Assembly: GCF_018070075.1 (NCBI RefSeq) | Contig: NZ_JAGPXE010000004.1 | Span: 496,001-560,000 of the forward strand | DNA length: 64,000 nt | Source: Saccharopolyspora endophytica | Lineage (GTDB): Bacteria > Actinomycetota > Actinomycetes > Mycobacteriales > Pseudonocardiaceae | Direction: 5' to 3' | Shown here: in pieces, positions 3,815-47,932 of the stretch | Layout of the letters: the number at the start of each line of letters is the position of its first letter | How positions within the stretch are numbered: position 1 is the stretch's first letter | Program-made: the position numbers and the translations under genes | The notes under the pieces: model-generated | What the model was told of the DNA's origin: nothing | Databases searched by the model: none | Seen by the model: only the letters and a program-made list of their open reading frames with translations

Positions 3815-3835
3815 GGGAATTGAGGGATTGCTTTG

Positions 3836-3886
3836 CGTGGCGGTGCGGGCTGAGTCCCACACCTGAAGCACCGGCTCCGCCGCATT
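3836..3886 (-). repeat. Short copy (C) of the dispersed stem-loop repeat
   Basis: Read on the minus strand, this segment carries GGTGTGGG and CCCGCACC arms (plus-strand positions 3856-3863 and 3842-3849) closing a six-nt loop ACTCAG, preceded by TTCAGG. The same outer arms and flanks occur in copy A at 34159-34327, but there they enclose a large inner domain that is absent here. Upstream flank GCGGCGG-AGCCG is also shared with copy A. It lies between mceF and the PucR gene, in the antisense orientation to both. Confidence 0.6.
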
Positions 3887-31067: not shown

Positions 31068-33876
31068 CGCGGCGGGCTCCTTCCTTGTCGTAGAAGACCG
31101 GTTCGGTGATCTCCACGGGCACCAGCTGGTCGCCCACGTGGCTGTAGATCGTCTGCCCGATGCGGTCGCGACCGCCGGCGACCAGCGCGAGCGCGAACGG
31201 GCGGCCCAGGGCCGCGCTGCGGTAGCTGGAGGTGACGTGCCCCAGCATCGGCACCGGCGGTTCCGGCAGCTCACCGGTGGCCACCAGCTGCGATCCCTCC
31301 GGCACGACGGGGGAGTCGGCGGGCGGGAGCAGCCCGACGAGGTGCTTGCGGTCGGAGCGGGCGGTGTCGGCGCGGGTGAACGAGCGCATGCCGAGGAAGT
31401 CGTCCTTCTTCTTCGACACCGCCCAGCTCATCCCGAGGTCGTGCGGGGTCACCGTGCCGTCGGTGTCCTGGCCGACGATGGGGAAGCCCTTCTCCGCGCG
31501 CAGCACGTGCATCGTCTCGGTGCCGTACGGGGTGATGCCGAACGGCACGCCCGCGTCGTGCAGCACCTCCCACACCTCGCGGCCGTACCAGCGCGGCACG
31601 TTGATCTCGAAGGCCAGCTCGCCGGAGAAGCTGATCCGGCACACCCGCGCCTGGCGGCCCGCGACGAGGCCGTCCTGCCAGGCCATGAACGGGAACGACT
31701 CGGTGTCCAGCTCGAAGCCGGAGGACACCGCCGCCAGCACGTCGCGGGACCGGGGACCGGCCAGCGCGATGGTGGCCCACTGCTCGGTGACCGAGGTCAG
31801 GTGCACGCGCAGGTGCGGCCACTCGGTCTGCAGCCAGTCCTCCAGCCACTCCAGCACCCCGGCGGCGCCGCCGGAGGTGGTCGAGATCAGGTACCGGTGC
31901 TCGCCGGTGCGCATCACCGTGCCGTCGTCGAAGACCATGCCGTCGGCGGTGCACATCAGCCCGTACCGGATGCGGCCGACCTTCAGGGTGCTCATCTTGT
32001 TGGTGTAGACGAGATCGAGGAACTCGGCGGCGTCCGGTCCCTGCACGTCGATCTTGCCGAGCGTCGAGACGTCCTGCATGCCCACGCCGGTGCGCACGGC
32101 GTCGCACTCGCGCAGCACCGCCGCCTGCATGTCCTCGCCCGGCAGCGGGTAGTACCAGGGCCGCTTCCACTGGCCGACGTCCTCGAACGGCGCGCCCTGC
32201 TCGACGTGCCAGTCGTGCATCGCGGTGACCCGGACCGGGTCGTAGAGGTCGCCCCGGTCCCGCCCGGCCAGCGCGGCGAATGCCACCGGCGTGTAGGGCG
32301 GGCGGAACGTGGTCGCTCCGACCTCGGAGAGCTCGACGCCCAGCAGCTGGGAGATCACCCCGGAGGACTGGATGCCGGAGGTCTTGCCCTGGTCGTGGGC
32401 GGTGCCGATGGTGGTGAACCGCTTGATGTGCTCCACCGAGTCCATGCCCGCGCCGACGGCCTTGCGGACGTCGGACACGGTCGCATCCCGCGCGAGGTCC
32501 ACGTACTGCTCGTCCTCGCACGCGCCGGTGAGCAGCCACGTCGGCTGCGGCGCGACGACCGGCGGGCTCGCCACCGCGGGCACCTCGGCGAAGTCGGCGT
32601 CGAACCCGGCGTCCCGCGCCGCGTCGCTGCCCGCCTCGGAACCGGTGCGCAGGCAGTCGAAGGTGCCGAAAACCCCTGCGGCGGCGCCGACCGAGCGCAC
32701 ACCGCGCGTGCTGCGGTCCGGCACGAACGCGCCGATCTCCGCTGAGTAGCGCAGGGTTCCGCGCGACTGGCTGTGCAGGTGCACCGCCGGGTTCCAGCCA
32801 CCGGAGACCAGCAGCAGGTCGCAGTCCAGCTCGACGGTCGCCTCCTCGCCCCGCCGCTGCACCGTCACACCGCTCACGCGGCCGGTGCCCGAGGTGCCGA
32901 TCAAGGCGGAGCCGTTGCGGATGGGGATGCCGCGCTCCACGCAGCGCGAGGCCCACACCGTCGACACGACCGGCCGGACGTCCACCACCGCGGCGATGGC
33001 GACCCCGGCGTCGTGCAGGTCGATCGCGGCGGCGTAGGCGCTGTCGTTGGTGGTGTACACGACCGCGCGCTCGCCCGCGAGCACGCCGTAGCGGTGCAGG
33101 TAGGTGCGGGCGGCTCCGGCCAGCATCGTGCCGGGGCGGTCGTTGCCCGGGAACACCAGCGGGCGCTCGTGCGAACCGGTGGCCAGCACGACCTCGCGAG
33201 CCCGGATGTGCCAGGTGCGCTGCCGGACGAAGGAGTCCTCGCCGTGGTGCTCGACGGCCACGAGGTAGTTGTGGTCGTAGTGGCCGAACACCGTGGTGCG
33301 CGGCAGCGCGGTCACCTCGGGGGCGGCGTCGAGCTCGGCGACGACCCGCTGGACCCATCTGTCGGCCGGCCTGCCGGACAGCTGCTCACCGCTGCCCAGC
33401 AGCTGGCCGCCGAACTCCGGCCCCGCATCGGCGATGATCACCCGGGCTCCGCTGCGCGCGGCGCTCAGCGCCGCCGCGAGACCGGCGGGTCCGGCACCGA
33501 CCACGAGGACGTCGCAGTGCGCGTGCGTCGTCTCGTAGCGGGCCGGGTCGGGCTCGGTCGCGAGCCGTCCCTGGCCGGGCAGCCCCGTGGCGGCCAGGCC
33601 GTCGCGCAGTTCGACGGTGGTCGCGGTGAGCATCGGCTCCGGGAACGGCTCGTCGATCTGCACCAGCGCGTTCGGTTCCTCGGGGCCCGCGGCCATGATC
33701 CCGCGCGGGCGGCCGTGCTTGATGCTGGTGGTGACCTGGTGGACGCCGTTGGCCAGCAGCGCCGAGGCGAGGGTGTCGCCTTCGAAGCCCTCGTACTCCC
33801 GTCCGTCGAACCGGAATCGCAGGGTGCGGTCCCGGTCGATCCGGCCGCCTTCGGCCAGCCTGAACTCGTTGCTCAC
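31060..33876 (-). CDS. soxA: Sarcosine oxidase subunit alpha
   Basis: 938 residues. N-terminal 2Fe-2S-ferredoxin-like fold ('RFRFDGREYEGFEGDTLASALL', cysteines absent), FAD/NAD-binding 'VLVVGAGPAGLAAALSAA', a middle pyridine-nucleotide oxidoreductase part, and a C-terminal GcvT-type folate domain with 'GMQDVSTLGKIDVQGPDAAEFLD' and 'FPIVGQDTDGTVTPHDLGM'. Together with SoxB, D and G it oxidatively demethylates sarcosine to glycine, giving H2O2 and methylene-THF. GTG start overlaps the soxD stop (GTGA). Confidence 0.94.
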   Translation of the reverse strand: MSNEFRLAEGGRIDRDRTLRFRFDGREYEGFEGDTLASALLANGVHQVTTSIKHGRPRGIMAAGPEEPNALVQIDEPFPEPMLTATTVELRDGLAATGLPGQGRLATEPDPARYETTHAHCDVLVVGAGPAGLAAALSAARSGARVIIADAGPEFGGQLLGSGEQLSGRPADRWVQRVVAELDAAPEVTALPRTTVFGHYDHNYLVAVEHHGEDSFVRQRTWHIRAREVVLATGSHERPLVFPGNDRPGTMLAGAARTYLHRYGVLAGERAVVYTTNDSAYAAAIDLHDAGVAIAAVVDVRPVVSTVWASRCVERGIPIRNGSALIGTSGTGRVSGVTVQRRGEEATVELDCDLLLVSGGWNPAVHLHSQSRGTLRYSAEIGAFVPDRSTRGVRSVGAAAGVFGTFDCLRTGSEAGSDAARDAGFDADFAEVPAVASPPVVAPQPTWLLTGACEDEQYVDLARDATVSDVRKAVGAGMDSVEHIKRFTTIGTAHDQGKTSGIQSSGVISQLLGVELSEVGATTFRPPYTPVAFAALAGRDRGDLYDPVRVTAMHDWHVEQGAPFEDVGQWKRPWYYPLPGEDMQAAVLRECDAVRTGVGMQDVSTLGKIDVQGPDAAEFLDLVYTNKMSTLKVGRIRYGLMCTADGMVFDDGTVMRTGEHRYLISTTSGGAAGVLEWLEDWLQTEWPHLRVHLTSVTEQWATIALAGPRSRDVLAAVSSGFELDTESFPFMAWQDGLVAGRQARVCRISFSGELAFEINVPRWYGREVWEVLHDAGVPFGITPYGTETMHVLRAEKGFPIVGQDTDGTVTPHDLGMSWAVSKKKDDFLGMRSFTRADTARSDRKHLVGLLPPADSPVVPEGSQLVATGELPEPPVPMLGHVTSSYRSAALGRPFALALVAGGRDRIGQTIYSHVGDQLVPVEITEPVFYDKEGARRDG

Positions 33877-34136
33877 CTCGTCACCGCCCCGTCGTCGTGG
33901 AGGATCTCGTTGGTCCTGGTGTCGCGGCGGAGGGTGAACCAGCGCCGGCAACCCGCCTGGTGGTTCCACCGCTCCGCGAAGGCGCCCTTCGGATTGGCGC
34001 GGTAGAACAGGAACCGAGCCCAGTCCACATCGGACACCGCCTGCGGATCGGCGGGGTAGGCGACGTCGGCCTGACCGCCGTAGTGGAACTCGGTCTCATT
34101 GCGCGGCCCGCACCACGGGCAGGGAATCAGCATCAT
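33873..34136 (-). CDS. soxD: Sarcosine oxidase subunit delta
   Basis: 87 residues, the usual small SoxD. Zinc ligands are visible as 'CPWCGPR' near the N-terminus and 'HQAGCRRWF' near the C-terminus. It holds the heterotetramer together. Ribosome site AAGGAGG precedes the start; the two adjacent ATG codons make the start ambiguous by one residue. A repeat element separates it from soxB upstream. Confidence 0.94.
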   Translation of the reverse strand: MMLIPCPWCGPRNETEFHYGGQADVAYPADPQAVSDVDWARFLFYRANPKGAFAERWNHQAGCRRWFTLRRDTRTNEILHDDGAVTR

Positions 34137-34158: not shown

Positions 34159-34327
34159 GGGCGGTGCGGCGGTAGCCGCTGTTTCAGGTGTGGGACTCAA
34201 CTCGCACTGCCGCGGGTTCTCAGCGGTTCTCCGGGGAGGACGCCGCGACGCCGTGTATTGGCATACTCAAGGAGTGGCGCCCGGACCCGGAGGGCCGCTG
34301 AGGTTCCGCTACCCGCACCGCCGAGCA
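34159..34327 (+). repeat. Dispersed structured repeat, copy A (between soxB and soxD)
   Basis: About 160 nt, matching copy B (47045-47206). Outer arms GGTGTGGG (34187-34194) and CCCGCACC (34312-34319). Inner 17-nt arms at 34219-34235 and 34286-34302 pair fully with two G.U pairs. The enclosed 50-nt loop (34236-34285) is 47/50 identical to copy B and contains the mini-hairpin GTAT-TGGC-ATAC. A 5' hairpin GCGGC-GGTA-GCCGC lies near 34166. The G.U pairs favour a plus-strand RNA, antisense to the sox operon. No protein is encoded. Confidence 0.7.
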
Positions 34328-34350
34328 AGATGAGCGTGGAAACAGTGTTC

Positions 34351-35580
34351 TCAGTGCGCCACGCCGGCGGCGCCGTGTTCGTCTACCAGGGCGCCGGTGG
34401 TGAACCGGTCGAGGCTGAACGGGGCGTTGAGCGGGTGGGGTTCGTCGTGGGCGATGGTGTGGGCGTAGCACCAGCCGACGCCGGGTGTCGCCTTGAAACC
34501 TCCTGTGCCCCAACCGCAGTTGATGTACAGGCCGTCGAACGGGGTCAGGCCCATGATCGCCGAGGCGTCCGGGGTCACGTCCACCACGCCCGCCCAGGTG
34601 CGCAGCACGTGCGCGCGGGCGAACATCGGGAACAGCTCGACCGCGGCGGTCAGCTCGCGCTCGATGGTGTGGAACGACCCGCGCTGCCCGTAGGAGTTGT
34701 AGGCGTCGATGCCGGCGCCGAGGACGAGCTCTCCCTTGTGCGCCTGGCTGACGTAGACGTGCACCGCGTTGGACATGACCACCGTCGGGTGCACCGGTTC
34801 CAGCAGTTCGGAGACCAGCGCCTGCAGCGGGTGGCTCTGCAGCGGCAGCGGCAGGCCGAGCTCGTCGGCGAGCACCGAGGTGTGCCCTGCGGCGGCCAGC
34901 GCGACCTTGCCGGTGGCGATGTCACCGCGCGTGGTGCGCACGCCCACGATCTTGTCGCCCACCCGGTCGAAGCCGGTGACCTGGCAGTTCTGCACGAGGT
35001 CCACGCCCATCCGGTCCAGCGCGCGGGCGAATCCCCAGGCGACGTGGTCGTGCTTGGCGATGCCCGCCCGGGGCTGCCAGGTCGCGCCCATGACCGGGTA
35101 GCGCAGGTCCGGTGAGGTGTTGAGGATCGGGCAGATCTCGGCCACCTGCTGCGGATCGAGCCACTCGGCGTCGATGCCGTTGAGCCGGTTCGCCCCCACG
35201 CGCCGGACGCTGTCGCGGACCTCCTGCAGGGAGTGGGCGAGGTTGAGCACGCCGCGCTGGGAGAACAGCAGCGGGTAGTCGAGCTCCTCCTCCAGCCCCT
35301 CCCAGAGCTTCAGCGCGTGCTCGTAGAGCCCGGCGCTGTCGTCCCAGAGGTAGTTGGAGCGGATGATCGTGGTGTTGCGGGCCATGTTCCCGCCTGCGAG
35401 CCAACCGCTTTCGAGCACGGCGACGTTGGTGATGCCGTGGTTGACGGCGAGGTAGTAGGCGGTGGCCAGGCCGTGACCGCCGCCGCCCACGATCACCACG
35501 TCGTAGGACGGTTTCGGGTCGGCGGGGCCCCAGAGCCAGTCCGGGTGCTCAGGCAAGTCGGCGCCGGGAGTGCGCGGCAT
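34351..35580 (-). CDS. soxB: Sarcosine oxidase subunit beta
   Basis: 409 residues. Dinucleotide fold '[17 protein letters not shown]' near residue 28, the SoxB segment '[17 protein letters not shown]' and '[19 protein letters not shown]', where His177 sits in the position reported to hold covalent FMN. C-terminus has '[16 protein letters not shown]'. It carries the sarcosine oxidation site. First gene of the operon soxB-D-A-G-mscR-MBL-metF. ATG 35580 with GGAGGG 6 nt upstream. Confidence 0.94.
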
Positions 35581-35645
35581 GAGAGCCCTCCGTTCGATGT
35601 GCGGTGAGCGAGTGCTCGACAGGGGGGAGAGGCACTTATGGACAA

Positions 35646-35657
35646 CTGACATATCAG
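35646..35657. promoter_or_regulatory. Operator-like palindrome, site 1 (soxB promoter)
   Basis: CTGACATATCAG, 10 of 12 positions symmetric, 66 bp upstream of soxB. One of five related sites (see 35848, 45294, 47926, 47941) that share consensus CTGATATATCAG. A GntR/FCD regulator encoded at 47234-47932 is the best candidate to bind them. Confidence 0.55.
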
Positions 35658-35847
35658 ATGGATACCAAAGGTAGCAGCGCGTGCCGCGTGGTCAAGGGCT
35701 GAAGCTCGGTCGGGGTGGAGATCGTGGCGTTGGCGCTGGTAGGAGCACTCGGACGGGTGGGTGCGCGGGGTGCGGGTCGTGCCCGTCGGTGGAATTTCGG
35801 CGCCGCGTGTTGACCGCGAAACCGGCGACGCTTATTTTGATGTGCAG

Positions 35848-35859
35848 TTGATATATCAG
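35848..35859. promoter_or_regulatory. Operator-like palindrome, site 2 (dimethylglycine oxidase promoter)
   Basis: TTGATATATCAG containing the perfect palindrome TGATATATCA. It lies 132 bp upstream of the dimethylglycine gene start, flanked by AT-rich bases that could hold a -10/-35 pair. Best match to the consensus of the five sites. Confidence 0.55.
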
Positions 35860-35981
35860 TCCTCAGTCAGAGGGCGACGATCACCTCCGCGCGGCTCCAC
35901 TCGGTGCCGGAACAGCTCTCCTCGCAACGCATCCCGCCTCGTCGCAGGCGGAGTCTCCCCAGCTTCACACCCGCTCGTTAG

Positions 35982-38456
<2,475 letters not shown>

Positions 38457-38472
38457 AAACCCCGGCAGCAAG

Positions 38473-38540
38473 GGCAGTTCTGGCCCGAACCGCCCGTGGT
38501 CGATGTCCCTTTCGCCCGGACAGTTCGGACCAGAACCGCC
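38473..38540 (-). repeat. Long inverted repeat between dimethylglycine oxidase and serine dehydratase genes
   Basis: Two 23-nt arms (38473-38495 and 38518-38540) around a 22-nt spacer. On the plus strand 19 pairs are Watson-Crick and four are A.C mismatches; on the minus strand all four become G.U, so the stem is uninterrupted there. Each arm also contains a GTTC/GAAC half-palindrome. It could be a terminator/attenuator, a two-site operator or a minus-strand RNA. Confidence 0.5.
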
Positions 38541-38593
38541 ACCTTCCGGGTATCGAACGCTTCGCTCCGCCCCCAACCGATCAGGAGCACTGC

Positions 38594-39949
38594 ATGAGCC
38601 TGTCCGTCTTCGACTTGTTCAAGGTCGGCATCGGGCCGTCGAGTTCGCACACGGTCGGGCCGATGCGGGCGGCGTTCCGGTTCGTCGACCACCTGCGCCG
38701 GACCGGGGCGCTGACCCGCACGACCCGGGTGCGCTGCGAGCTGTTCGGCTCGCTGGGCGCCACCGGCCGCGGGCACGGCAGCGTGAAGGCCGTCGTGCTC
38801 GGGCTGACCGGGGAACAACCGCACCTGGTCGACCCGGTGGCCGTCGAACCGCAGGTCCTCGCGGTGCGCGAAGAGCACCGCATCAGCCTCGGCGGCGAGC
38901 ACAAGATCACCTTCGACGTGGACGCCGACATCGTGCTGCACCGCGATGAACGGCTCGACTTCCACACCAACGGCATGACCTTCGAGGCCTTCGACGACAG
39001 CGGAGCCCGGCTCGTGCGCCGCGAGTACTACTCCGTCGGCGGCGGGTTCGTGCTCGACGAGGACGAGACCGATCGCCCGGCGCTCGTCGAGGACGCTGCG
39101 CCGGTCGCCCACCCGTTCCGCACCGGAGCCGAACTGCTCGTCCGCGCAGCGGAGACCGGTGGGCGCATCAGCGACGTGGTCCTGGCCAACGAGGCGACCT
39201 GGCGCCCCGAGAGCGAAACCCGAGCGCACCTGCTGCACATCTGGCAGGTGATGCGGGAGTGCGTCGAGCAGGGCGTGCGCACCGGCGGCGTCCTGCCCGG
39301 CGGGCTCGAAGTCCGCCGCCGCGCCCAGGACCTGCACATCCGCCTCGACGAGGACGCCGACCCCATGGAGTGGGTGACCCTCTACGCCCTGGCGGTCAAC
39401 GAGGAGAACGCGGCGGGCGGCCGCGTGGTGACCGCCCCGACCAACGGCGCCGCCGGGATCGTCCCGGCGGTGCTGCACTACGCCCACCGCTTCCTCCCGG
39501 GATTCGACGACGACGCGGCGGTCCGCTTCCTGCTCACCGCGGGAGCGGTCGGCGCGCTGTTCAAGGAGAACGCCTCCATCTCCGGTGCCGAGGTCGGGTG
39601 CCAGGGCGAGGTCGGTTCGGCCTGCTCGATGGCCGCCGCCGGGCTCGCCGAGCTGCTGGGCGGAACGCCGGAGCAGGTGGAGAACGCCGCCGAGATCGGC
39701 ATCGAGCACAACCTCGGGCTGACCTGCGACCCGATCGGCGGGCTCGTGCAGATCCCGTGCATCGAGCGCAACGCGGTCGCGGCGATCAAGGCGATCACCG
39801 CCGCGCGGATGGCGCTGCGCGGCGACGGCAAGCACCACGTCTCGCTGGACAAGGCCATCAAGACGATGCGCGACACCGGCGCCGACATGAAGGACGAGTA
39901 CAAGGAGACCGCCCGCGGCGGCCTCGCGCTCAACATCGTGGAATGCTGA
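38594..39949 (+). CDS. sdaA: L-serine ammonia-lyase (iron-sulfur type)
   Basis: 451 residues, single-chain bacterial type. Starts '[27 protein letters not shown]'-like, typical of SdaA; the 4Fe-4S cysteines are in '[16 protein letters not shown]' and '[13 protein letters not shown]'. It deaminates serine to pyruvate. In this cluster it would finish glycine use once glycine plus methylene-THF have formed serine through GlyA (not in the window). ATG 38594 with AGGAG upstream. Confidence 0.93.
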
Positions 39950-40013
39950 GGAGAACCCCGTGACCAATTGGCGTAGCTTGCAAGCCCCGTTTCTTCAGGG
40001 CCGGGTTAGCGAA

Positions 40014-40477
40014 TCAATTTCGTGGGCGACCCGGCCCGCGCAGCGGACGCTGCTGCTGCTCGATGTACTGCTTGATGATCGACAAGTGTGCCCTCCACAC
40101 GGCGCGGCGAAGTAAGACGGCGACCACAAATGCCCCTTCATCGAGAACCTGTTTACCCTGCCCGTGAACTCGAACCGCAGTTTGCGGGCGGACACACCTT
40201 TGAGGCTGTTCACGGGCTTCGGCACCGCGACCTTCGGCGGAAGGTTCACCAGCAGATGAACGTGATCGGCTCGCCGTTGAACTCGGCAAATCTCGGACTC
40301 GAAGTCCGCGCACACCTCCCGCGTCACCAGCTCGCAGCAAGCCAGCATCTCGTCGGTGAACACGCCACGCGGATAATTCGTCACAAAGAAAAAATGAACG
40401 TGCATCGCGGAGACCGCGCTACGAACACGCCTATATCCGTCATCAAAAACCATAGACCAATGGCATACTTGGATCAT
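40014..40477 (-). pseudogene. tnpA: IS200/IS605 transposase TnpA (Y1/HUH), frameshifted
   Basis: The frame from 40477 encodes 'AMHVHFFFVTNYPRGVFTDE', the HUH motif 'DHVHLLVNLP' and 'GHLWSPSYFAAPCGG', then shifts. The catalytic-Tyr helix 'LSIIKQYIEQQQRP' continues in another frame ending at 40014. The break is near 40095-40105 and looks like loss of one base. Without the Tyr helix in frame, the transposase should be inactive unless frameshifting occurs. Confidence 0.8.
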
Positions 40478-41621
40478 GCAGCTTCGGTACAACTTCCGCG
40501 TCTACCCGACGCCTGGCCAGCGCGCGGCGCTGGCCAGGACGTTCGGGTGTGCGCGAGTGGTGTACAACGACGCGCTCCGCGCCCGGCAGGACGCCTACGC
40601 GGCCGGGGAGAAGCTGTCCGACACCGACGTGCAGCGCCGCGTGGTTTCCGAGGCCAAACGGACCGAGCAACGCGCGTGGCTGTCCAAGGTCGCATCGGTT
40701 GCCCTAGTGCAGGCATGCCAGGACGCACGCATGGCGTACCGGAACTGGTTCGACTCAATGTCCGGGAAACGCTCCGGACGCAAGGTCGGGCGTCCCAAGT
40801 TCAGGTCCCGCAAAGACAACCGGCAAGCCGTCCGGTTCACCCGCAACGGCTTCAGCATCAAACCAAACGGGAAATTGTACGCGGCGAAGATCGGCGAACT
40901 CAACATCCGCTGGTCAAGGGAACTCCCATCCGCGCCGTCGTCGGTCACGCTGATCAAGGACGCGGCGAGCCGCTACTTCGCGTCGTTCGTTGTCGACGTG
41001 GACCAAGAACCGTTGCCGACCACCGGCACCGAGGTGGGTATCGACCTGGGGTTGGCCACCTTCGCGGTGCTCTCAGACGGAAAAACCATCGCGTCGCCGA
41101 AGTTCCTGCGCAGTGCCGAACGCAAGCTTCGCAAAGCTCAGCACGCCCTGTCTCGCAAGGACAAGGGAAGCAAGAATCGCGCCAAGGCCCGTGTTCGCGT
41201 GGCCAAGGCGCATGCCAAAGTCTGCGACGCTCGAACCGACTGGGCACACAAGCACTCGACGGCGATCATCCGCGACAACCAAGCGGTGTACGTCGAGGAC
41301 CTGTGTGTCAGCGGCCTTGGTCGGACGCGGTTGGCGAAGTCTGTGCACGACGCCGCGTGGGGCACGTTCCTGCGCATGCTGGAAAACAAGGCACAACGTT
41401 ATGGGCGTGTCGTGCACCGCATCGACCGGTTCTATCCGTCGTCGCAGATCTGTTCCGAGTGTGGCCGTGTCGACGGCAAGAAACCGTTGTCCGTACGGGA
41501 TTGGACGTGCCCGTGCGGCGCGCACCACGACCGCGACCTGAATGCAGCCAAGAACATCCTCACCGCCGGACGGGCGGAGAGGCTAAACGCCTGCGGAGAG
41601 ACGGTCAGCCTCTCCGCCTAG
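40476..41621 (+). CDS. tnpB: IS605-type TnpB, RNA-guided nuclease, intact
   Basis: 381 residues, full length. RuvC triad is complete: Asp190 in 'GIDLGLATFAVL', Glu274 in 'VYVEDLCVSGL' and Asp354 in 'HDRDLNAAKNIL'. The zinc ribbon 'CSECG...CPCG' lies between the last two. The N-terminal 'YNFRVYPTPGQRAALARTFGCARVVYN' is the family start. TnpB cleaves DNA guided by an omega RNA made from its own 3' end and right-end sequence, helping the element to persist. Here it may keep acting although tnpA is broken. Confidence 0.92.
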   Translation: MQLRYNFRVYPTPGQRAALARTFGCARVVYNDALRARQDAYAAGEKLSDTDVQRRVVSEAKRTEQRAWLSKVASVALVQACQDARMAYRNWFDSMSGKRSGRKVGRPKFRSRKDNRQAVRFTRNGFSIKPNGKLYAAKIGELNIRWSRELPSAPSSVTLIKDAASRYFASFVVDVDQEPLPTTGTEVGIDLGLATFAVLSDGKTIASPKFLRSAERKLRKAQHALSRKDKGSKNRAKARVRVAKAHAKVCDARTDWAHKHSTAIIRDNQAVYVEDLCVSGLGRTRLAKSVHDAAWGTFLRMLENKAQRYGRVVHRIDRFYPSSQICSECGRVDGKKPLSVRDWTCPCGAHHDRDLNAAKNILTAGRAERLNACGETVSLSA

Positions 41622-41638
41622 CGGGGAGCACGTCTCAA
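41500..41638 (+). ncRNA. Putative omega RNA (reRNA) of TnpB
   Basis: By family rule the omega RNA overlaps the tnpB 3' end and runs to the right end of the element, with the guide read from the flank. The strong stem GGCGGAGAGGCT/AGCCTCTCCGCC (41573-41584, 41607-41618) and the TCAA end support a scaffold here; its 5' end is not determinable. The guide would then start at 41639, inside purU. Confidence 0.5.
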
Positions 41639-42549
41639 TGAAACAGGAACCCACCGAAGCGACGCATACGCGCGCAGTAGGAATCCCGGCCGTTCACGGC
41701 GGGGAGGACGTCAAATTCACCCTCACCCTGAGCTGCCAGAACCGCACCGGCATCGTTCAGGCGGTCAGCTCGTTCCTGTTCCGGCACGGGTGCGACATCG
41801 GCGAGTACCGCCAGTTCGACGACGCCGTGCGCGGACGCCTGTTCCTGCGGGTGCAGGCCACCGGCGACGACGCCGACCTCGACGAGCTCAGGCGCGGGTT
41901 CGAGCCGGTGGCAACGGAATTCGGCATGGACTACGCGTTCCACTCGGCGCGTCCGGCCCGCGTGCTCGTGATGGTCTCCAAGCTCGGGCACTGCCTCAAC
42001 GACCTGATCTACCGCTGGCGGGCGGGCGCGCTGGGCGCCGAGATCGTCGCCGTGGTCTCCAACCACGAGGACCTGCGCCCGATGGCCGAGGCCGCCGGCC
42101 TGCCGTTCCACCACGTGCCGGTCACCCCGGAGACCAAACCCGAGTCCGAGGCGCGGCTGCTGCGGTTGGTCGACGACCACGCCGCGGACCTGGTCGTGCT
42201 CGCCCGCTACATGCAGGTGCTGTCCGACCAGACCTGCAAGGCGCTGCACGGCAGGGCGATCAACATCCACCACTCGTTCCTGCCCGGTTTCAAGGGCGCC
42301 AAGCCCTACCACCAGGCGTACGACCGGGGCGTCAAGCTCGTCGGCGCCACGGCCCACTACGTCACCCCGGACCTCGACGAGGGACCGATCATCGAGCAGG
42401 AGGTCATCCGCATCGACCACACCCACGACCCGAGAGCCCTGCAGACCGTGGGCCGCGACGCCGAAGCGCTCGCGCTGTCCCGCGCGGTGCGGTGGTACTG
42501 CGAGCACCGCGTCCTGCTCAACGGCAACAGCACCGTCGTGTTCCCCTGA
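41638..42549 (+). CDS. purU: Formyltetrahydrofolate deformylase
   Basis: 303 residues. N-terminal ACT domain ('FTLTLSCQNRTGIVQAVSSFLF', from about residue 24) and C-terminal formyltransferase-like domain with 'LARYMQVLS', 'NIHHSFLPGFKGAKPYHQAYDRGVKLVGATAHYV' and 'EGPIIEQEV'. It hydrolyses 10-formyl-THF to formate and THF, recycling folate for the demethylases. The first about 22 residues have no family match. An orphan ribosome site and GTG start (AGGAG then GTG at 39960) precede the IS, so the element probably split the original 5' end and the ATG at 41638 is a re-created start. Confidence 0.9.
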   Translation: MKQEPTEATHTRAVGIPAVHGGEDVKFTLTLSCQNRTGIVQAVSSFLFRHGCDIGEYRQFDDAVRGRLFLRVQATGDDADLDELRRGFEPVATEFGMDYAFHSARPARVLVMVSKLGHCLNDLIYRWRAGALGAEIVAVVSNHEDLRPMAEAAGLPFHHVPVTPETKPESEARLLRLVDDHAADLVVLARYMQVLSDQTCKALHGRAINIHHSFLPGFKGAKPYHQAYDRGVKLVGATAHYVTPDLDEGPIIEQEVIRIDHTHDPRALQTVGRDAEALALSRAVRWYCEHRVLLNGNSTVVFP

Positions 42550-42579
42550 ACCCACTTCAGCGCTGAGGAGCCTGTGCCC

Positions 42580-43719
42580 ATGACCACCGGTGAGCTTCCC
42601 ACCACCGAGTCCCAGCTGCCCGAGAGCCTGCGCGAGACGCTGCCGGGGCACTACTACACCGAGCCGGGGATCTTCCGCCTGGAGCAGGCGACGATCTTCG
42701 AGGCCGGCTGGTTCTGCGCGGTGCGCAGCGCCGACCTGGCCAAGCCGGGCCAGTTCGAGACCGTCCAGATCGGCCGGGAGAGCGTGCTGGTCACCCGCAA
42801 CCGCAGCGGCGCCGTCAAGGCGCACCTCAACGTGTGCCGGCACCGAGGCGCGCGGTTGTGCACCGAGGAGTCCGGCGAGGTGCGCCGGTCCTTCCAATGC
42901 CCCTACCACGCCTGGACGTACTCCTTCGACGGCGAGCTGATCGCCGCGCCGAACCTCAACGCCATGGACGACGTCGACCGCACCCAGTACGGCCTGCACG
43001 GGGTGCACGTGCGGGAGTGGCTCGGGTACGTGTGGCTGTGCCTGGCCGAGGAACCGCCGTCGTTCGACGACACCGTCATCGGCGACGTCACCAACCGCCT
43101 CGGCACGCCGGACGCGATCGTCGGCTACCAGGTCGCCGACCTCAAGCTGGGCAGGCGCGTCGAGTACGACGTGAAGGCGAACTGGAAGCAGATCGTCGAG
43201 AACTTCATGGAGTGCTACCACTGCGCCACGATCCACCCGGAGCTCACCGAGGTCCTGCCGGAGTTCGCCGACGGCCTCGCCGCGCAGTACTTCGTGGGTC
43301 ACGGCGCCGAGTTCGGCGAGGACGTCGAGGGTTTCACCGTGGACGGTTCGGCCGGGCTGGCGAAGCTTCCCGGCGTCAACGAGGAGCAGGACCGCCGCTA
43401 CTACGCCATCACCGTCCGGCCGCAGGTGTTCATCAACCTCGTGCCCGACCACGTGGTCTTCCACCGGATGTTCCCGCTGGCGCCCGACCGCACGCTCGTG
43501 CGCTGCGACTGGCTGTACCTGCCCGAGGTCGTCGACTCGGGCGCCGACATCGACCGCTCGGTGGAGCTGTTCCACCGGGTCAACCAGCAGGACTTCGACG
43601 CCTGCGAACGCTGCCAGCTGGCCATGGATTCCCGCTCCTACGCCTCCGGCGGCGTGCTCGTGCCCAGCGAGCACCACATCGCCGAGTTCCACGACTGGGT
43701 CCGCGAACGCACCGGCTGA
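42580..43719 (+). CDS. Glycine-betaine monooxygenase-like Rieske oxygenase (GbcA type)
   Basis: 379 residues. Rieske 2Fe-2S ligands Cys86, His88, Cys107 and His110 ('CRHRGARLC', 'CPYHAW') and the mononuclear iron site 'NFMECYHCATIHPEL' (His214, His219). Overall pattern resembles GbcA/stachydrine demethylase-type oxygenases, which convert betaine to dimethylglycine and formaldehyde. The gene context (dimethylglycine, sarcosine, formaldehyde enzymes) supports betaine. No GbcB-type reductase is adjacent. ATG 42580 has GAGGAG at good spacing; GTG 42574 is too close. Confidence 0.82.
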   Translation: MTTGELPTTESQLPESLRETLPGHYYTEPGIFRLEQATIFEAGWFCAVRSADLAKPGQFETVQIGRESVLVTRNRSGAVKAHLNVCRHRGARLCTEESGEVRRSFQCPYHAWTYSFDGELIAAPNLNAMDDVDRTQYGLHGVHVREWLGYVWLCLAEEPPSFDDTVIGDVTNRLGTPDAIVGYQVADLKLGRRVEYDVKANWKQIVENFMECYHCATIHPELTEVLPEFADGLAAQYFVGHGAEFGEDVEGFTVDGSAGLAKLPGVNEEQDRRYYAITVRPQVFINLVPDHVVFHRMFPLAPDRTLVRCDWLYLPEVVDSGADIDRSVELFHRVNQQDFDACERCQLAMDSRSYASGGVLVPSEHHIAEFHDWVRERTG

Positions 43720-43732
43720 CCCGTGACCGAGG

Positions 43733-43767
43733 AGGTGGCCTCGCACCGGACGGGTGCGAGGCCACCT
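43733..43767. terminator. Bidirectional terminator between convergent gbcA-like and MHS genes
   Basis: AGGTGGCCTCGCACC (43733-43747) and GGTGCGAGGCCACCT (43753-43767) form a perfect 15-bp stem with a 5-nt loop, placed between two convergent stops (43719 and 43784). Confidence 0.8.
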
Positions 43768-43783
43768 TCGCGCGTGCCGGGCT

Positions 43784-45214
43784 CTAGCGCGGAAGTTCCA
43801 GCGGCACGCCGTCGTCCGACAGCGGCGGGGGTGGCAGCTCGGCGCTGGAGGTCAACGGCGCGGCTCCGTCCAGCGGCTTGCCCGCGTGCTCGCGCAGGAA
43901 GTGCGTGGCCACGATCCCGATGACGCCGGCACCGATCAGGTAGTAGCCCGGCCAGTCCAGGTTGCCGGTCGCGGTGACGGCGGCCTCGATGATCGTCGGC
44001 GCGGTGCCGGCGAACAGCGACACCGACAGGTTGAAGATGACCGCGAGGCTGCTGTAGCGGATCATCGTGGGGAACAGCGCTGGCAGCGTCGACGGTGAGA
44101 CCGCCGCGAAGCACATCAGGCACAACCCGATGATGAGCAGCCCGAGCGCCTGACCACCCGTTCCGGCGCGCAGCAGCCACACGGCGGGCAGCCCGAGCAG
44201 GACCAGGGCGACGCTGCCGGTCATCAGCACGGGTTTGCGGCCGATGCGATCGCTGAGCCGGCCCACGCCGACGATGGCGCACAGCATCACCACCATGACC
44301 GCGACCTGCATGCCCGTCGCGACCGCGTTGCTCGTGCCGCCCTCGCCGTGGCGGGGGAGCGTGCTGGTCAGGTAGGTCGGGACGTAGTTGGTGAGCACGT
44401 AGTTGGTGACGTTCCACGCCACGACGATCCCGGCGGCCACCATCGCGGGAGTCCGGTAGTGGCGCAGCACGATCTGCCCCGCGCGCCGCGTCGTCATCGT
44501 GGCCAGCACCGGTGAGCGCTCCATGAGCTGCCGGAACGCCGGGGTGTCCTCCAGGCGGATGCGCAGGTAGAGCCCGATGAGCCCGAGCGGGAGCGCGAGC
44601 ATGAACGGCACCCGCCAGCCCCAGGTCAGCAGCGCGTCCGGCGGCAGCAGGGCGACCACCGCGCCGCAGGTGCCCGCGCCGAGGGCGTAGCCGGTCAGCG
44701 TGCTGAACTCCAGCCAGCTGCCGAAGAAGCCGCGGCGCCGGTCCGGCGCGTACTCGGCGATCAGCGTCAGCGCCCCGGTGTACTCGCCGCCCGCGGAGAA
44801 GCCCTGCAGCATCCGCACGAGCAGCACGAGGACGGGCGCCAGCAGACCGGCCGCGCCGTAGTCGGGGAGGAGCCCCAGCAGCACCGTGGCCGCCGCCATC
44901 ATGAGCACCGTGGCGGACAGGACCTTGGTGCGCCCGAAGCGGTCGCCGAGACGTCCGAAGACGAAGCCGCCCAGCGGGCGCATCACGAACGCGGCGGCGA
45001 ACGCGCCGAGCGTGTACACCGCGGCCCACGGGCCGAAGTCGGCGAAGAAGACCTGGTCGAGCACCCCGGCGGCCAGGTAGGAGTAGATCCCGAAGTCGTA
45101 CCACTCGGCGACGTTGCCGACCGAGGCCGCCGCGACCGCGCGGTGGACCGTGCGTTCCTCTTGCACGACAGGCGGTCTCAGACCTCGCCGAGGCCGTCTG
45201 GGGCGGTCGGTCAT
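43784..45214 (-). CDS. MFS transporter, metabolite:H+ symporter (MHS/ProP-like)
   Basis: 476 residues, 12 predicted TM helices. The MHS signature is clear: 'GNVAEWYDFGIYSYLA', 'RPLGGFVFGRLGDRFGRTKVL', 'RMLQGFSAGGEYTGALTLIAEYAP', 'SWLEFSTLTGYALGA' and 'LSDRIGRKPVLM'. MHS members carry betaine, proline, citrate or shikimate with protons; the neighbours suggest betaine or a related methylamine. ATG at 45214; operator site 3 lies about 80 bp upstream. Confidence 0.9.
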   Translation of the reverse strand: MTDRPRRPRRGLRPPVVQEERTVHRAVAAASVGNVAEWYDFGIYSYLAAGVLDQVFFADFGPWAAVYTLGAFAAAFVMRPLGGFVFGRLGDRFGRTKVLSATVLMMAAATVLLGLLPDYGAAGLLAPVLVLLVRMLQGFSAGGEYTGALTLIAEYAPDRRRGFFGSWLEFSTLTGYALGAGTCGAVVALLPPDALLTWGWRVPFMLALPLGLIGLYLRIRLEDTPAFRQLMERSPVLATMTTRRAGQIVLRHYRTPAMVAAGIVVAWNVTNYVLTNYVPTYLTSTLPRHGEGGTSNAVATGMQVAVMVVMLCAIVGVGRLSDRIGRKPVLMTGSVALVLLGLPAVWLLRAGTGGQALGLLIIGLCLMCFAAVSPSTLPALFPTMIRYSSLAVIFNLSVSLFAGTAPTIIEAAVTATGNLDWPGYYLIGAGVIGIVATHFLREHAGKPLDGAAPLTSSAELPPPPLSDDGVPLELPR

Positions 45215-45293
45215 GGGGTCCCCCGGGTGCGACGCGGTGCGCTGGGTGCCGCCGTCGGAGTGGCGGCGTCGCGGTTGTGACCGCGACCCACTA

Positions 45294-45305
45294 CTGATAT
45301 ATCTG
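45294..45305. promoter_or_regulatory. Operator-like palindrome, site 3 (transporter promoter)
   Basis: CTGATATATCTG, 10 of 12 positions symmetric, 80 bp upstream of the MHS transporter start. Shares its core GATATATC with site 2 at 35848-35859. Confidence 0.5.
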
Positions 45306-45495
45306 TTGGCGAGAAGGTATCCCCTCGGCATCGCCGAAGCAACACCCCAACTCCCTCATCACCCGTCCACGAGGTCGCGACGCGGCAGCGCGCGGCCTCG
45401 CGATCGAGCGCGCCCGGGGGTCGGAAACCCCTGTGAAGTCCCTGTTTCGGGCGAAAATCTCCCATTGACGAGCGGGCTGCGGACCCCCATCCTGT

Positions 45496-45533
45496 TGTTG
45501 CGCATAGCACGCGGTGTTCCGCTATCTGCAACA
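45496..45533. promoter_or_regulatory. Inverted repeat before the Rieske ferredoxin gene
   Basis: TGTTGCGCATAGC (45496-45508) and GCTATCTGCAACA (45521-45533), 11 of 13 positions complementary, separated by 12 nt that include GTGTTCC. The GTTCCGCTAT and GTTGCGCATAG halves resemble IclR-family operators. It abuts the AGGAGG ribosome site, so a bound protein would block transcription or initiation. Confidence 0.45.
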
Positions 45534-45542
45534 GGAGGCGTA

Positions 45543-45878
45543 ATGATCTTGGTTGGTGAGCTGCTCGACCTGCCGCCGGGGGAGTCGGTCCGCGTGCACG
45601 GCGAGGTGGCGATCGCGGTGTTCAACGTCGACGGGGAGCTCTACGCGATCGATGACACCTGCTCGCACCAGGACGCGTCGCTGTCCGACGGATGGTTGGA
45701 GGGCTGCGCGGTCGAATGTCCGCTGCACGCCGCCTGTTTCGACCTCCGCACGGGAATGCCCAGCGGCCCGCCCGCCAAGAAGCCGGTCCGCACGCACGCC
45801 GTCACCGTCGAGGACGGGATGGTCTACGTGCACGAGTCGACTCGCGTCGGCAGCACCGTCGCGGAGGAGGTCGGTTGA
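45543..45878 (+). CDS. Rieske-type 2Fe-2S ferredoxin
   Basis: 111 residues of the BphF/bifunctional nitrite-reductase-small-subunit-like Rieske family. Ligands CxH and CxxH are in 'DDTCSHQDASL' and 'VECPLHAACFD', 16 residues apart. Such small ferredoxins pass electrons from a flavoprotein reductase to an oxygenase. Its stop overlaps the reductase ATG (TGATG), so the two are coupled. The oxygenase partner is likely the GbcA-like protein encoded 1.8 kb upstream. ATG 45543 with AGGAGG. Confidence 0.9.
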   Translation: MILVGELLDLPPGESVRVHGEVAIAVFNVDGELYAIDDTCSHQDASLSDGWLEGCAVECPLHAACFDLRTGMPSGPPAKKPVRTHAVTVEDGMVYVHESTRVGSTVAEEVG

Positions 45879-47041
45879 TGCGCCACATCACGGTCGTCGG
45901 CGCGTCCCTGGCCGGGCTCTCGGCGGTCCGCGCGCTGCGCGAGCAGGGTTTCGAAGGCGAGATCGCGGTGGTCGGCGACGAGCCGCACCGCCCCTACGAC
46001 CGGCCGCCGCTGTCCAAGGAGTTCCTGGCGGGGGCGATCGACGAGGCCGACATCCGGCTCACCGACTCCGATGACGACGAGCTCGACGTGGACTGGCGCC
46101 TCGGGCAGCCCGCGAACGCGCTCGACACGGCCGGTCGCGCGGTCGTGCTCGCCGACGGCACCCGCATCGGCACCGACGGCGTCGTGCTGGCCACCGGCGC
46201 GCGGGCGCGGCAGCTGCCCGGAAAGCAGCTCCGGGGCGTGCACACCCTGCGGACCCTGGACGACGCGCGGGCGCTGCGCGCGGAGCTGGTCGCCGGAGCG
46301 CGGCTGGTGGTGGTCGGCGCCGGGTTCATCGGCGCCGAGGTCGCCTCGACGGCGGTCGCGCTCGGGTGCGAGGTCGACGTCGTCGACAACGGCCCGGTTC
46401 CGCTGCGACGAGCGCTGGGAGCAGACATGGGTGAGGTGTGCGCTCGGCTGCACGCCCGCAACGGCGTCCGGGTGCACCCGCTGTCCGGCGTCGCCGAGCT
46501 GCTGGGCGAGTCCCGCGTGACCGGGGTGCGGCTGTCCGACGGGCGGGAGCTGCCCGCGGACGTGGTCGTGGTCGGCATCGGGGCCGAACCGAACACCGAA
46601 TGGCTCGCCGGGTCCGGGCTCGACGTCGACCACGGCGTCAGCACCGACGCGCGCGGCCGGACCGGGGTGCCGGAGGTCGTGGCAGCGGGCGACTGCGCGC
46701 ACTCCTACCGCGACTACACCGAGCGTCCGATGCGGCTGGAGCACTGGACCAACGCGCTGCAACAACCGGCCGCCGCGGTGGCGGCGCTGCTCGGCCGGGA
46801 GCACTCGGCGCCCGCGCACCACGCGGTTCCCTACTTCTGGTCCGACCAGTACGGCCACAAGATCCAGTTCGCCGGCCACCGCACCGAGGACTGCACCGTC
46901 CAGATCGAGGAGGGCGACCCCGAATCCGGCGACTTCCTCGCCCTCTACCTCGACGCGGCGGAAGAGCCCGTCGGCGTGCTCGCGGTCGATCGCGCCCGGC
47001 CCTTCGGCCAATGGCGCCGCAAGCTCGCACAGCGCCTATAA
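45878..47041 (+). CDS. FAD-dependent ferredoxin reductase (BphA4/rubredoxin-reductase type)
   Basis: 387 residues. FAD motif 'VVGASLAGLSAVRALREQG', 'YDRPPLSKEFLAG', NAD motif 'VVVGAGFIGAEVAS' and 'VAAGDCAHSY' followed by 'EHWTNALQQPAAAVAALLG' are typical of oxygenase-coupled ferredoxin reductases; the C-terminal 'PYFWSDQYGHKIQFAG' fits the same group. It would move electrons from NADH to the upstream Rieske ferredoxin. Confidence 0.92.
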   Translation: MRHITVVGASLAGLSAVRALREQGFEGEIAVVGDEPHRPYDRPPLSKEFLAGAIDEADIRLTDSDDDELDVDWRLGQPANALDTAGRAVVLADGTRIGTDGVVLATGARARQLPGKQLRGVHTLRTLDDARALRAELVAGARLVVVGAGFIGAEVASTAVALGCEVDVVDNGPVPLRRALGADMGEVCARLHARNGVRVHPLSGVAELLGESRVTGVRLSDGRELPADVVVVGIGAEPNTEWLAGSGLDVDHGVSTDARGRTGVPEVVAAGDCAHSYRDYTERPMRLEHWTNALQQPAAAVAALLGREHSAPAHHAVPYFWSDQYGHKIQFAGHRTEDCTVQIEEGDPESGDFLALYLDAAEEPVGVLAVDRARPFGQWRRKLAQRL

Positions 47042-47044
47042 GGC

Positions 47045-47206
47045 AGCTGTGGGGCAGTCCGTGTTTCAGGTGCGGGACTCAGCTTGCACCGCCGCGGGTT
47101 CTCAGACGTCGTCTGGGGAGGACGCCGCGACGCCGTGTATTGGCATACATCAGGAGTGGCGCCCGGACCCAGACGGCGTCTGAGGTTCCACCACCTGCAC
47201 CGCCAA
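47045..47206 (+). repeat. Dispersed structured repeat, copy B (after the ferredoxin reductase)
   Basis: Same architecture as copy A: outer arms GGTGCGGG (47069-47076) and CCTGCACC (47194-47201), inner 17-nt arms at 47101-47117 and 47168-47184 pairing fully with one G.U, and a 50-nt loop (47118-47167) with the mini-hairpin TGTAT-TGGC-ATACA. Compared with copy A the inner arms differ at five left and four right positions, yet every pair is kept. It lies between convergent genes, so it could act as a 3' structure or terminator of the reductase transcript. Confidence 0.7.
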
Positions 47207-47233
47207 GCAGGGCCCCACAGCAATTGGCGTCAG

Positions 47234-47932
47234 CTACACCAGGGAGCGCATCGCCTTGTCGAAGTTGAGGACGTGCTCCCTGGCCAGCTGTTCCGCCTTG
47301 TCCGGCTTGCGCGATCCGATGGCTCGCAGCAGTGCCGAGTGCTCCATGACGTGGCTGTCGAAGTCCTGCATGCGGTCCAGGAAGACGCAGAAGATCCGCG
47401 TCGCGAGGTTGTCGTAGCGGATGAGGGTGTCTTCGAGGTGCGGGTTGCCCGCGGCGTGGTAGATCGTGCGGTGCACGTGCAGGTCCCAGCGCATGACCTC
47501 GTCGCGCGCCATCGAGCGGAAGTCCATGCCGTCGAGCTGGTCGACGAGGCCGCCGATCTCCTCCAGATCGGCGTCCGAGGCGATCTCCGCGGCTCGCCGG
47601 GCGGCCAGCGGTTCGAGGTGCACGCGCAGGTCGGAGATGTAGGCCAGGTCGGTGATGTCCACGGCCGTGGCGAAGGTTCCCCGGCGCGGGTAGGACACGA
47701 CGAGCCGGTCGATCTCCAGGCGCTTGAGCGCCTCGCGCACAGGGGTGCGGCCGATCTCCAGCGAGCGCGCCAGCGCCGCGTCGTCGATGGCCGTCATCGG
47801 CGGGATGTCCAGCATGATCAGCCGGTCTCTGATCGCCAGGTAGGCCTTCTCCGCCATGGACAGGTTGCCCGGTTGCTCCTCGCTCGCAGCAGTCATCATC
47901 GCCCCGACTTCATCAGAACGGAGTTCTGACAC
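47234..47932 (-). CDS. GntR-family regulator, FCD/FadR-type ligand domain
   Basis: 232 residues. Winged helix about 25-90 with 'DDAALARSLEIGRTPVREALKRLEIDRLV' and the wing 'YPRRGTFATAVD'. C-terminal FCD domain with metal-type residues in 'WDLHVHRTIYHAAGNPHLEDTL' and 'HVMEHSALLRAI'. FCD regulators sense small carboxylates or amino acids. Its location and five matching palindromes make it the best candidate regulator of the betaine/sarcosine genes. Start uncertain: GTG 47932 overlaps an operator-like site, ATG 47899 would avoid it. Confidence 0.88.
   Translation of the reverse strand: MSELRSDEVGAMMTAASEEQPGNLSMAEKAYLAIRDRLIMLDIPPMTAIDDAALARSLEIGRTPVREALKRLEIDRLVVSYPRRGTFATAVDITDLAYISDLRVHLEPLAARRAAEIASDADLEEIGGLVDQLDGMDFRSMARDEVMRWDLHVHRTIYHAAGNPHLEDTLIRYDNLATRIFCVFLDRMQDFDSHVMEHSALLRAIGSRKPDKAEQLAREHVLNFDKAMRSLV

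Follow-up and report, generated by a model that had tools for sequence, protein, structure and literature searches.

Among short, foldable bacterial repeats, the bcr1 sequences of the Bacillus cereus group are ~155-bp, dispersed, insertion-polymorphic intergenic repeats with compensatory changes, and the ERIC sequences of enterobacteria are ~127-bp foldable extragenic repeats. Here we describe a repeat present as two copies, A and B, in a 64,000-nucleotide stretch of Saccharopolyspora endophytica (RefSeq assembly GCF_018070075.1, contig NZ_JAGPXE010000004.1, positions 496,001 to 560,000; hereafter the window). It differs from bcr1 in host, target site and architecture, and from ERIC in host and ends; we know of no report of replichore polarity or stop-codon placement for bcr1.

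The repetitive extragenic palindromic (REP) sequences and REPINs that go with RAYT, including the CGTC-tagged REPs (PMC3733652), are extragenic, palindromic and numerous like our repeat, some type-2 copies of which start with CGTCAGGCAAGC beside a short hairpin. The repeat departs from REPs in that a ~200-bp element with a multi-helix core stands in place of a GTAG/CGTC tag with a single 20-40 bp palindrome, in that its duplications are of the IS5 type, and in that half of the element-rich genomes (10 of 20) gave no match to a Y1/RAYT transposase. As to miniature inverted-repeat transposable elements (MITEs) of the IS5 family, the repeat shares inverted-repeat ends and a short duplication with an IS5 element of S. 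rosea, and ends of the same type occur in S. erythraea; it differs by a deeply conserved covarying core, which is not part of the S. rosea insertion sequence (IS).

We report that the two copies belong to a real, widespread, folded and insertion-polymorphic repeat family, for which a MITE-like element with a structured core is the best description. Taken as a whole, the family is probably best explained as MITE-like elements that are mobilised by IS5 and whose core is kept foldable on one strand, with a role at the RNA level favoured.

Compensatory changes in the folded core

Both copies lie where the sequence-only reading had put them, and its description of a stem altered by compensatory changes around a near-identical loop holds in full. 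The stem arms are CGGTTCTCC/GGAGGGCCG in A and ACGTCGTCT/AGACGGCGT in B; from A to B four pairs are altered on both sides (C-G to A-T, G-C to C-G, C-G to G-C and C-G to T-A), one T.G becomes C-G and none is broken, while the loops differ solely by TCAA/ATCA. The features of the two copies are as follows.

34159-34352, plus strand: copy A in its full discernible extent, with type-1 5′ module, core and 3′ tail to the soxB stop (antisense TCA)
34204-34321, plus strand: core of A, model positions 1-118 (covariance model, 136.1 bits)
34220-34234, plus strand: 5′ arm of P1 of A, the long covarying helix
34287-34301, plus strand: 3′ arm of P1 of A
47043-47233, plus strand: copy B in its full discernible extent, starting directly behind a plus-strand oxidoreductase gene and ending at the antisense stop (CTA) of a GntR-family gene
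47046-47055, plus strand: outer arm GCTGTGGGGC of B, read as a terminal inverted repeat (partner 47212-47221)
47086-47203, plus strand: core of B, model positions 1-118 (covariance model, 138.2 bits)
47094-47098, plus strand: basal helix GCGGG of the B core (faces 47187-47191; one C.A mismatch in B)
47102-47116, plus strand: 5′ arm of P1 of B
47125-47128, plus strand: 5′ arm of P2 of B, the inner helix (pairs with 47156-47159; covariation between genera)
47137-47148, plus strand: apical hairpin GTAT-TGGC-ATAC of B
47169-47183, plus strand: 3′ arm of P1 of B, with the terminal motif CTGAG
47212-47221, plus strand: outer arm GCCCCACAGC of B

Two further stems of the sequence-only reading stood in part. 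The outer stem is present around B (47046-47055 with 47212-47221), and we read it as terminal inverted repeats, separate from the core fold. Several close copies have a disrupted GTAT/ATAC mini-hairpin, but the hairpin is supported across genera, where it corresponds to helix 4, with 93.8% of cells paired and 11 U-A to G-C changes.

The pairing was assessed in two alignments. In A2, which holds 99 distinct Saccharopolyspora copies and, being aligned to the model, leans towards it, standard pairs fill 97.3% of 3333 cells against 37.6-48.5% when the partners are slid, both-sided changes number 408 cells against 24-104, and 0 of 500 shuffles reached the observed values. In A3, which spans genera and was aligned without the model, 96.0% of cells are paired against 41-51%, with 212 both-sided cells against 31-50. 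P1, P2 and the apical hairpin each contain both-sided changes, the arms stay paired in the further copies, and the covariation goes beyond the relatedness controls, as is asked of a new structured RNA. Conservation outside the helices centres on motifs around GGGTTC/GGTTCC and GAGGAC, the former being a step of G.T, T.T and T.G between the basal helix and P1. Coincidence or a coding origin of the likeness between A and B is ruled out by the copy number and the pairing controls; the long open reading frames (ORFs) called over A and B resemble spurious frames of high-GC DNA, and a copy of ~200 bp would be too short to encode a transposase.

The fold is asymmetric between the strands. With columns of G.T majority excluded, G.T cells outnumber A.C cells by 143 to 11, so it is the strand given here as sense that folds. 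In three sets of copies the mean predicted energy of the RNA fold is 2.4-4.2 kcal/mol lower for the sense strand, and the predicted DNA folds are lower on that strand by ~1.5 kcal/mol or do not differ. The core is thus kept foldable on one strand independently of movement, most likely as RNA, and this strand-specific covariation favours a putative RNA-level role, in which the folded strand might bind a protein or stop read-through.

Such changes are also seen at a fixed locus. In genus g55, for which seven genomes with 1-4 matches each to the cross-genus model R2 are listed, four copies were fetched; three of these (L512, L513 and L515) follow gatB directly, in antisense orientation to it and at an equivalent position in three species whose gatB genes are 92-93% identical, with the core ending a few nucleotides from the gatB stop, and the fourth lies elsewhere. 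Over the 39 pairs of the fold predicted for one copy, any two of these cores are separated by 4-6 double changes, 1-2 one-sided changes and 1-2 broken pairs; of the 42 unpaired positions 3-5 differ. Paired change therefore also occurs in place. That double changes exceed one-sided ones is also what single-event correction would give, namely template switching during replication that copies one arm of a near-perfect palindrome onto the other and yields compensatory pairs without selection or function. Block replacement is pointed to by three sites (L016, L040 and L049, by eye) at which the relative G007 holds a same-strand core with both a different stem and a different loop type. However, correction would erase G.T pairs, which make up 461 of 3333 cells, and it predicts equal G.T and A.C together with free drift of the loop, the opposite of what is observed on both counts; unpaired motifs and fixed G.T pairs are moreover conserved across genera. 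We therefore regard a fold without function as distinctly improbable.

Copy number and distribution

The S. endophytica genome (7.17 Mb in 34 contigs) is rich in the repeat. A blast search with copy B found at least 40 places, scored among 202 candidates, and covariance model R1, built from 30 copies (alignment A1; L028 and L018b left out as truncated or interrupted), found at least 148 places at E<=0.01 among the 150 candidates scored. The 118-nt core of R1 matched in 25 of 61 relatives: within the genus 21 of 22 genomes, counting the own one, had a match, as did four from other genera of the family, against 0 of 24 outside it. Model R2 rests on alignment A3, which holds 40 copies drawn from five genera; run with stricter filters and at most 18 copies scored per genome, it matched in 56 of 200 Pseudonocardiaceae genomes and 13 of 46 genera. 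A pattern scan of named genomes gave only Saccharopolyspora species among the matches listed. Hosts treated below include S. rosea (A22; G003), S. dendranthemae (G001) and G033, which we take to be S. erythraea NRRL 2338.

The sequence-only reading had not recognised the family, and Rfam gives it no name either. No match reached the gathering score in the window, and at E<=5 over 46900-47350 the single match was a chance microRNA; no covariance model of a known Rfam family, HEARO, group II introns and riboswitches included, matched the repeat, and no description of the family was found in the literature searched.

Some copies have unusual arrangements. At L018 (G000:C29:130.2-130.9k) two copies ~500 bp apart lie between short WXG100-like genes in what by eye is an ESX-type locus, and at L418-L425 of S. 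rosea, where nine copies were viewed, a larger variant has P1 interrupted by ~50 nt that occur as direct repeats in both arms. Within the window the covariance model found only A and B as strong matches. A core-less copy of the flanking module was also present there:

3833-3883, minus strand: core-less type-1 module, a solo flanking repeat (blast)

A second, more diverged solo type-1 module lies at G000:C29:475.9k.

Insertion polymorphism between close relatives

The repeat is polymorphic by insertion between close relatives. Site B is occupied in S. endophytica, G007 and G011, each with a different stem, carries the 5′ module alone in G009 and is empty in S. dendranthemae and G016. Site A is full in S. 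endophytica, has an internal deletion in G007, is shared by G009 (seen from a contig end), holds a core-less module in G011 and is empty in S. dendranthemae. The copy at C29:583.3k, whose ends are analogous to the outer arms of B and are flanked by CTAG on both sides, with 196 bp between the two CTAG copies, is absent from G007 together with its outer inverted repeats, and there CTAG stands at the joint.

Of 29 own sites searched for in G007, 27 were comparable (L011 and L043 were not). A blast search with 70 known cores found a same-strand core in G007 at 16 of the 27, nine of these above 100 bits and that at L020 nearly identical; the core was on the opposite strand at four sites (L005, L015, L022 and L025), and seven had none (L012, L013, L019, L026, L028, L044 and L047), two of which (L012 and L028) retain the 5′ module by eye. 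The own contig C29 and C2 of S. dendranthemae had little shared sequence for a comparison of orthologous sites.

Ends, target sites and IS5 elements

The ends link the repeat to IS5 elements. In S. rosea the copies start with TGCCTGTCTTTGAACCTG after CTCAG/CTGAG, and the resident IS5-family element has TGCCTGTCTTTGATCTTGGG as its ends and the same flanking motif; its transposase has 277 aa and matches DUF4096 and DDE_Tnp_1 in Pfam and NF033580 in NCBIfam (199.5 bits). By eye, the ends of S. erythraea copies fall into a AGCCTGTCTTTGATCTT-like type with TCAG/CTCAG duplications and a GGGCTGTTTCACAAG-like type with CTTAG, and TCAG or CTCAG flanks both sides of the copies at 310157, 905402, 4905886 and 6797794, among others. 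Ends shared with a resident autonomous transposon, as expected of a MITE, are thus present in S. rosea and in one S. erythraea end type, and short target duplications, CTAG and TCAG/CTCAG by eye, are present at some copies.

IS5 elements also interrupt the repeat. In S. rosea an IS5 sits at the CTGAG of the P1 3′ arm at all four loci examined (L447, L455, L462 and L468) of 11 matches, and tandem copies of the repeat itself are likewise inserted at the CTGAG of the P1 arm; among four interrupted S. erythraea copies (L499, L501, L502 and L503), two have both IS ends at CTGAG and two show one such junction. The folded core looks like a recurrent IS5 landing site in these two species. A known IS end, which the sequence-only reading had considered as a source of the arms, does not explain them, since the IS5-type ends lie outside the covarying stem.

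Further observations concern individual ends. L340 of S. dendranthemae is bounded by the TAG of the left gene and the CTA of the right gene. Six other copies of that species (L288, L296, L322, L342, L354 and L355) are joined to a longer 5′ sequence with CTAAAACTGGGACCTGGTG or close variants, and a similar string also occurs 3′ in most of them and at IS5 ends there. L402 (G034:C1:87364) is flanked by a 20-nt direct repeat with the stop codon of the neighbouring gene, far above the usual duplication length, and L385 by one of 11 nt. Long duplications typical of target-primed insertion were seen in a few cases only, and the own outer repeat GAGCTGTTGAGGAATG was rejected as a high-copy IS end, as a scan that allowed one mismatch hit only three places in the own genome and 18 across 22 genomes.

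The element measures ~190-200 bp, and its inverted-repeat ends enclose a 5′ hairpin module, the conserved folded core of 118 nt and a short tail. Based on these findings, we propose that such non-autonomous elements would be moved in trans by IS5-family transposases at CTNAG/CTAG-type sites, with 3-5 bp duplicated. The ends and duplications were observed in S. rosea, in S. erythraea and at a few Saccharopolyspora sites, from which we infer movement and its extension to A and B.

Placement at stop codons

The genes around the copies were taken from a simple ORF caller, and the own set comprised the 30 best-scoring of 148 copies. Here the right-hand gene is antisense in 25 of 30, and for 21 of 30 the distance between the core and the stop of that gene is 14-34 nt. 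Copies in other genera behave alike (antisense right-hand gene in 27 of 30, stop within 17-46 nt in 22 of 30), as do those of S. erythraea (29 of 39, and within 18-49 nt in 22 of 39), and in the named Saccharopolyspora set (80 of 92 non-own matches) the right-hand gene is antisense in 48 of 80. The repeat is often found ~26 nt beyond the stop codon of a gene to which it is antisense. Copy A lies between soxB (34351-35652; TIGR01373) and soxD (33873-34136; PF04267), both on the minus strand; B is flanked by a plus-strand oxidoreductase (reductase) gene at 45692-47041 and a convergent minus-strand GntR-family gene at 47234-47932. In S. erythraea, antisense transcription is reported to be enriched at 3′ ends (PMC3610266).

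Since C followed by TGA or TAA and then G makes up a CTNAG site, and TAG lies within CTAG, the target may explain the placement at stops. TGA and TAA would fit TNA and TAG would fit CTAG, and by target and spacing tolerated insertions would pile up at stop codons. The target together with the purging of gene-breaking insertions may account for stop placement, and not fully for its one-sidedness.

Orientation relative to replication

Orientation was read on chromosomes with dnaA at the start and the terminus assumed opposite; rows were listed for 39 of 44 copies found in S. erythraea and 93 of 108 found in G034. Agreement with the replichore is seen for 37 of the 39 copies listed in S. erythraea and 76 of the 93 listed in G034, and it is weaker in S. 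rosea (78 of 112); in G035 the count is 6 of 7, and in G096, which starts at dnaA, 5 of 6 among the listed top matches. On own contigs with at least eight copies, 81 of 105 copies are on the majority strand. The S. erythraea genes in the fetched regions are leading in 41 of 76. Counts from position 1 of G122, G161, G107 and G014 (5/10, 5/8, 4/8 and 6/13) are uninterpretable, as these contigs do not start at dnaA. Fork-linked insertion bias or selection on orientation may be the cause of the polarity; strand-specific hairpin instability is a weak candidate, given that the predicted DNA energy is equal on both strands or differs between them by ~1.5 kcal/mol.

Polarity of this kind could mean that the repeat is a chromosomal signal serving the host, a fold read in a single direction with respect to replication, either in RNA or in single-stranded fork DNA, whose copies would be retained for their action at gene ends or at boundaries of replication and transcription. 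Beside the orientation in S. erythraea, G034, S. rosea and G035, this is supported by the S. erythraea copies that have convergent genes on either side and whose orientation therefore cannot be set by gene direction, 19 of 20 of which agree with the replichore, and by the unpolarised IS5 copies (17 of 37 agree; of 81 IS5 matches in G033, G034 and G003, those of nearly full length were taken). Such a signal is nevertheless unlikely, as the spread is patchy (under the stricter filters, 144 of 200 family genomes were without a match), close relatives do not keep the same sites, the 43 S. rosea copies with the best scores show weak polarity or none (25 of 43 agree), and the core or its remnant is reversed in G007 at four of the 27 compared sites. 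There is a slim chance, slightly better than that of a host signal, for a wider claim, namely that the folded element, as a structured RNA or a strand exposed at the fork, is polarised family-wide by replication direction independently of genes and of its carrier IS, that retention depends on the direction in which the replisome encounters it, and that it is used at the 3′ ends of co-directional genes.

Movement through a single-stranded DNA or RNA intermediate at forks, like that of IS200/IS605 or of retrotransposition, would itself impose polarity and need the fold, and both the replichore polarity and the selection of the fold on one strand suit it, as do some direct repeats that are long or vary in length (20 nt at L402 and 11 nt at L385). 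A Y1 transposase gene (IS200/IS605-type; PF01797, NF033573) lies between A and B at 39995-40492 on the minus strand and is the only PF01797 match in the own genome; such a gene is present in 10 of 20 genomes with at least 30 element matches, the own included. The other 10 element-rich genomes lack a PF01797 match, which rules out mobilisation by RAYT/Y1 as a general explanation, and the window scan found no copy of the repeat at the ends of the Y1 gene. IS608-type movement expects the lagging-strand template, whereas the folded strand is the leading-strand template, and short duplications with IS5-type ends favour a DDE transposase. We consider an intermediate of this kind quite unlikely.

Discussion

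Several results weigh against mobilisation by IS5 as set out above. No NF033580 match at E<=1e-20 was found in the own genome, in a search confined to this IS5 subfamily, despite at least 148 copies of the repeat, nor in G009, G011 and G035; the local mover of the own genome would therefore be another IS, or one since lost. No clean target duplication was found for A or B, the ends of the repeat vary between and within genomes, and direct repeats of at least 11 nt are scarce (5 of 138 against 1.0 expected). The antisense stop lies within 22-48 nt in only 28 of 80 named Saccharopolyspora copies, weaker than in the other sets. Finally, IS5 copies are unpolarised while the repeats are polarised, so simple IS5 transposition does not explain the polarity.

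The sequence-only reading had left the choice between a functional RNA and a structure-recognised mobile DNA, and both halves gain support, the one from a compensatory fold on one strand and the other from dispersed, insertion-polymorphic copies. To our knowledge, no other small bacterial repeat combines strong one-strand covariation, also at a fixed site, frequent placement at stop codons and, in some genomes, replication polarity without polarity of the likely IS5 vector.

In conclusion, this work adds a large structured-repeat family, absent from Rfam, to the genomes of Pseudonocardiaceae, and S. erythraea, the erythromycin producer, appears among its hosts. The family allows a concrete test of whether the fold, as RNA or DNA, or the transposase determines where and which way a mobile repeat survives.

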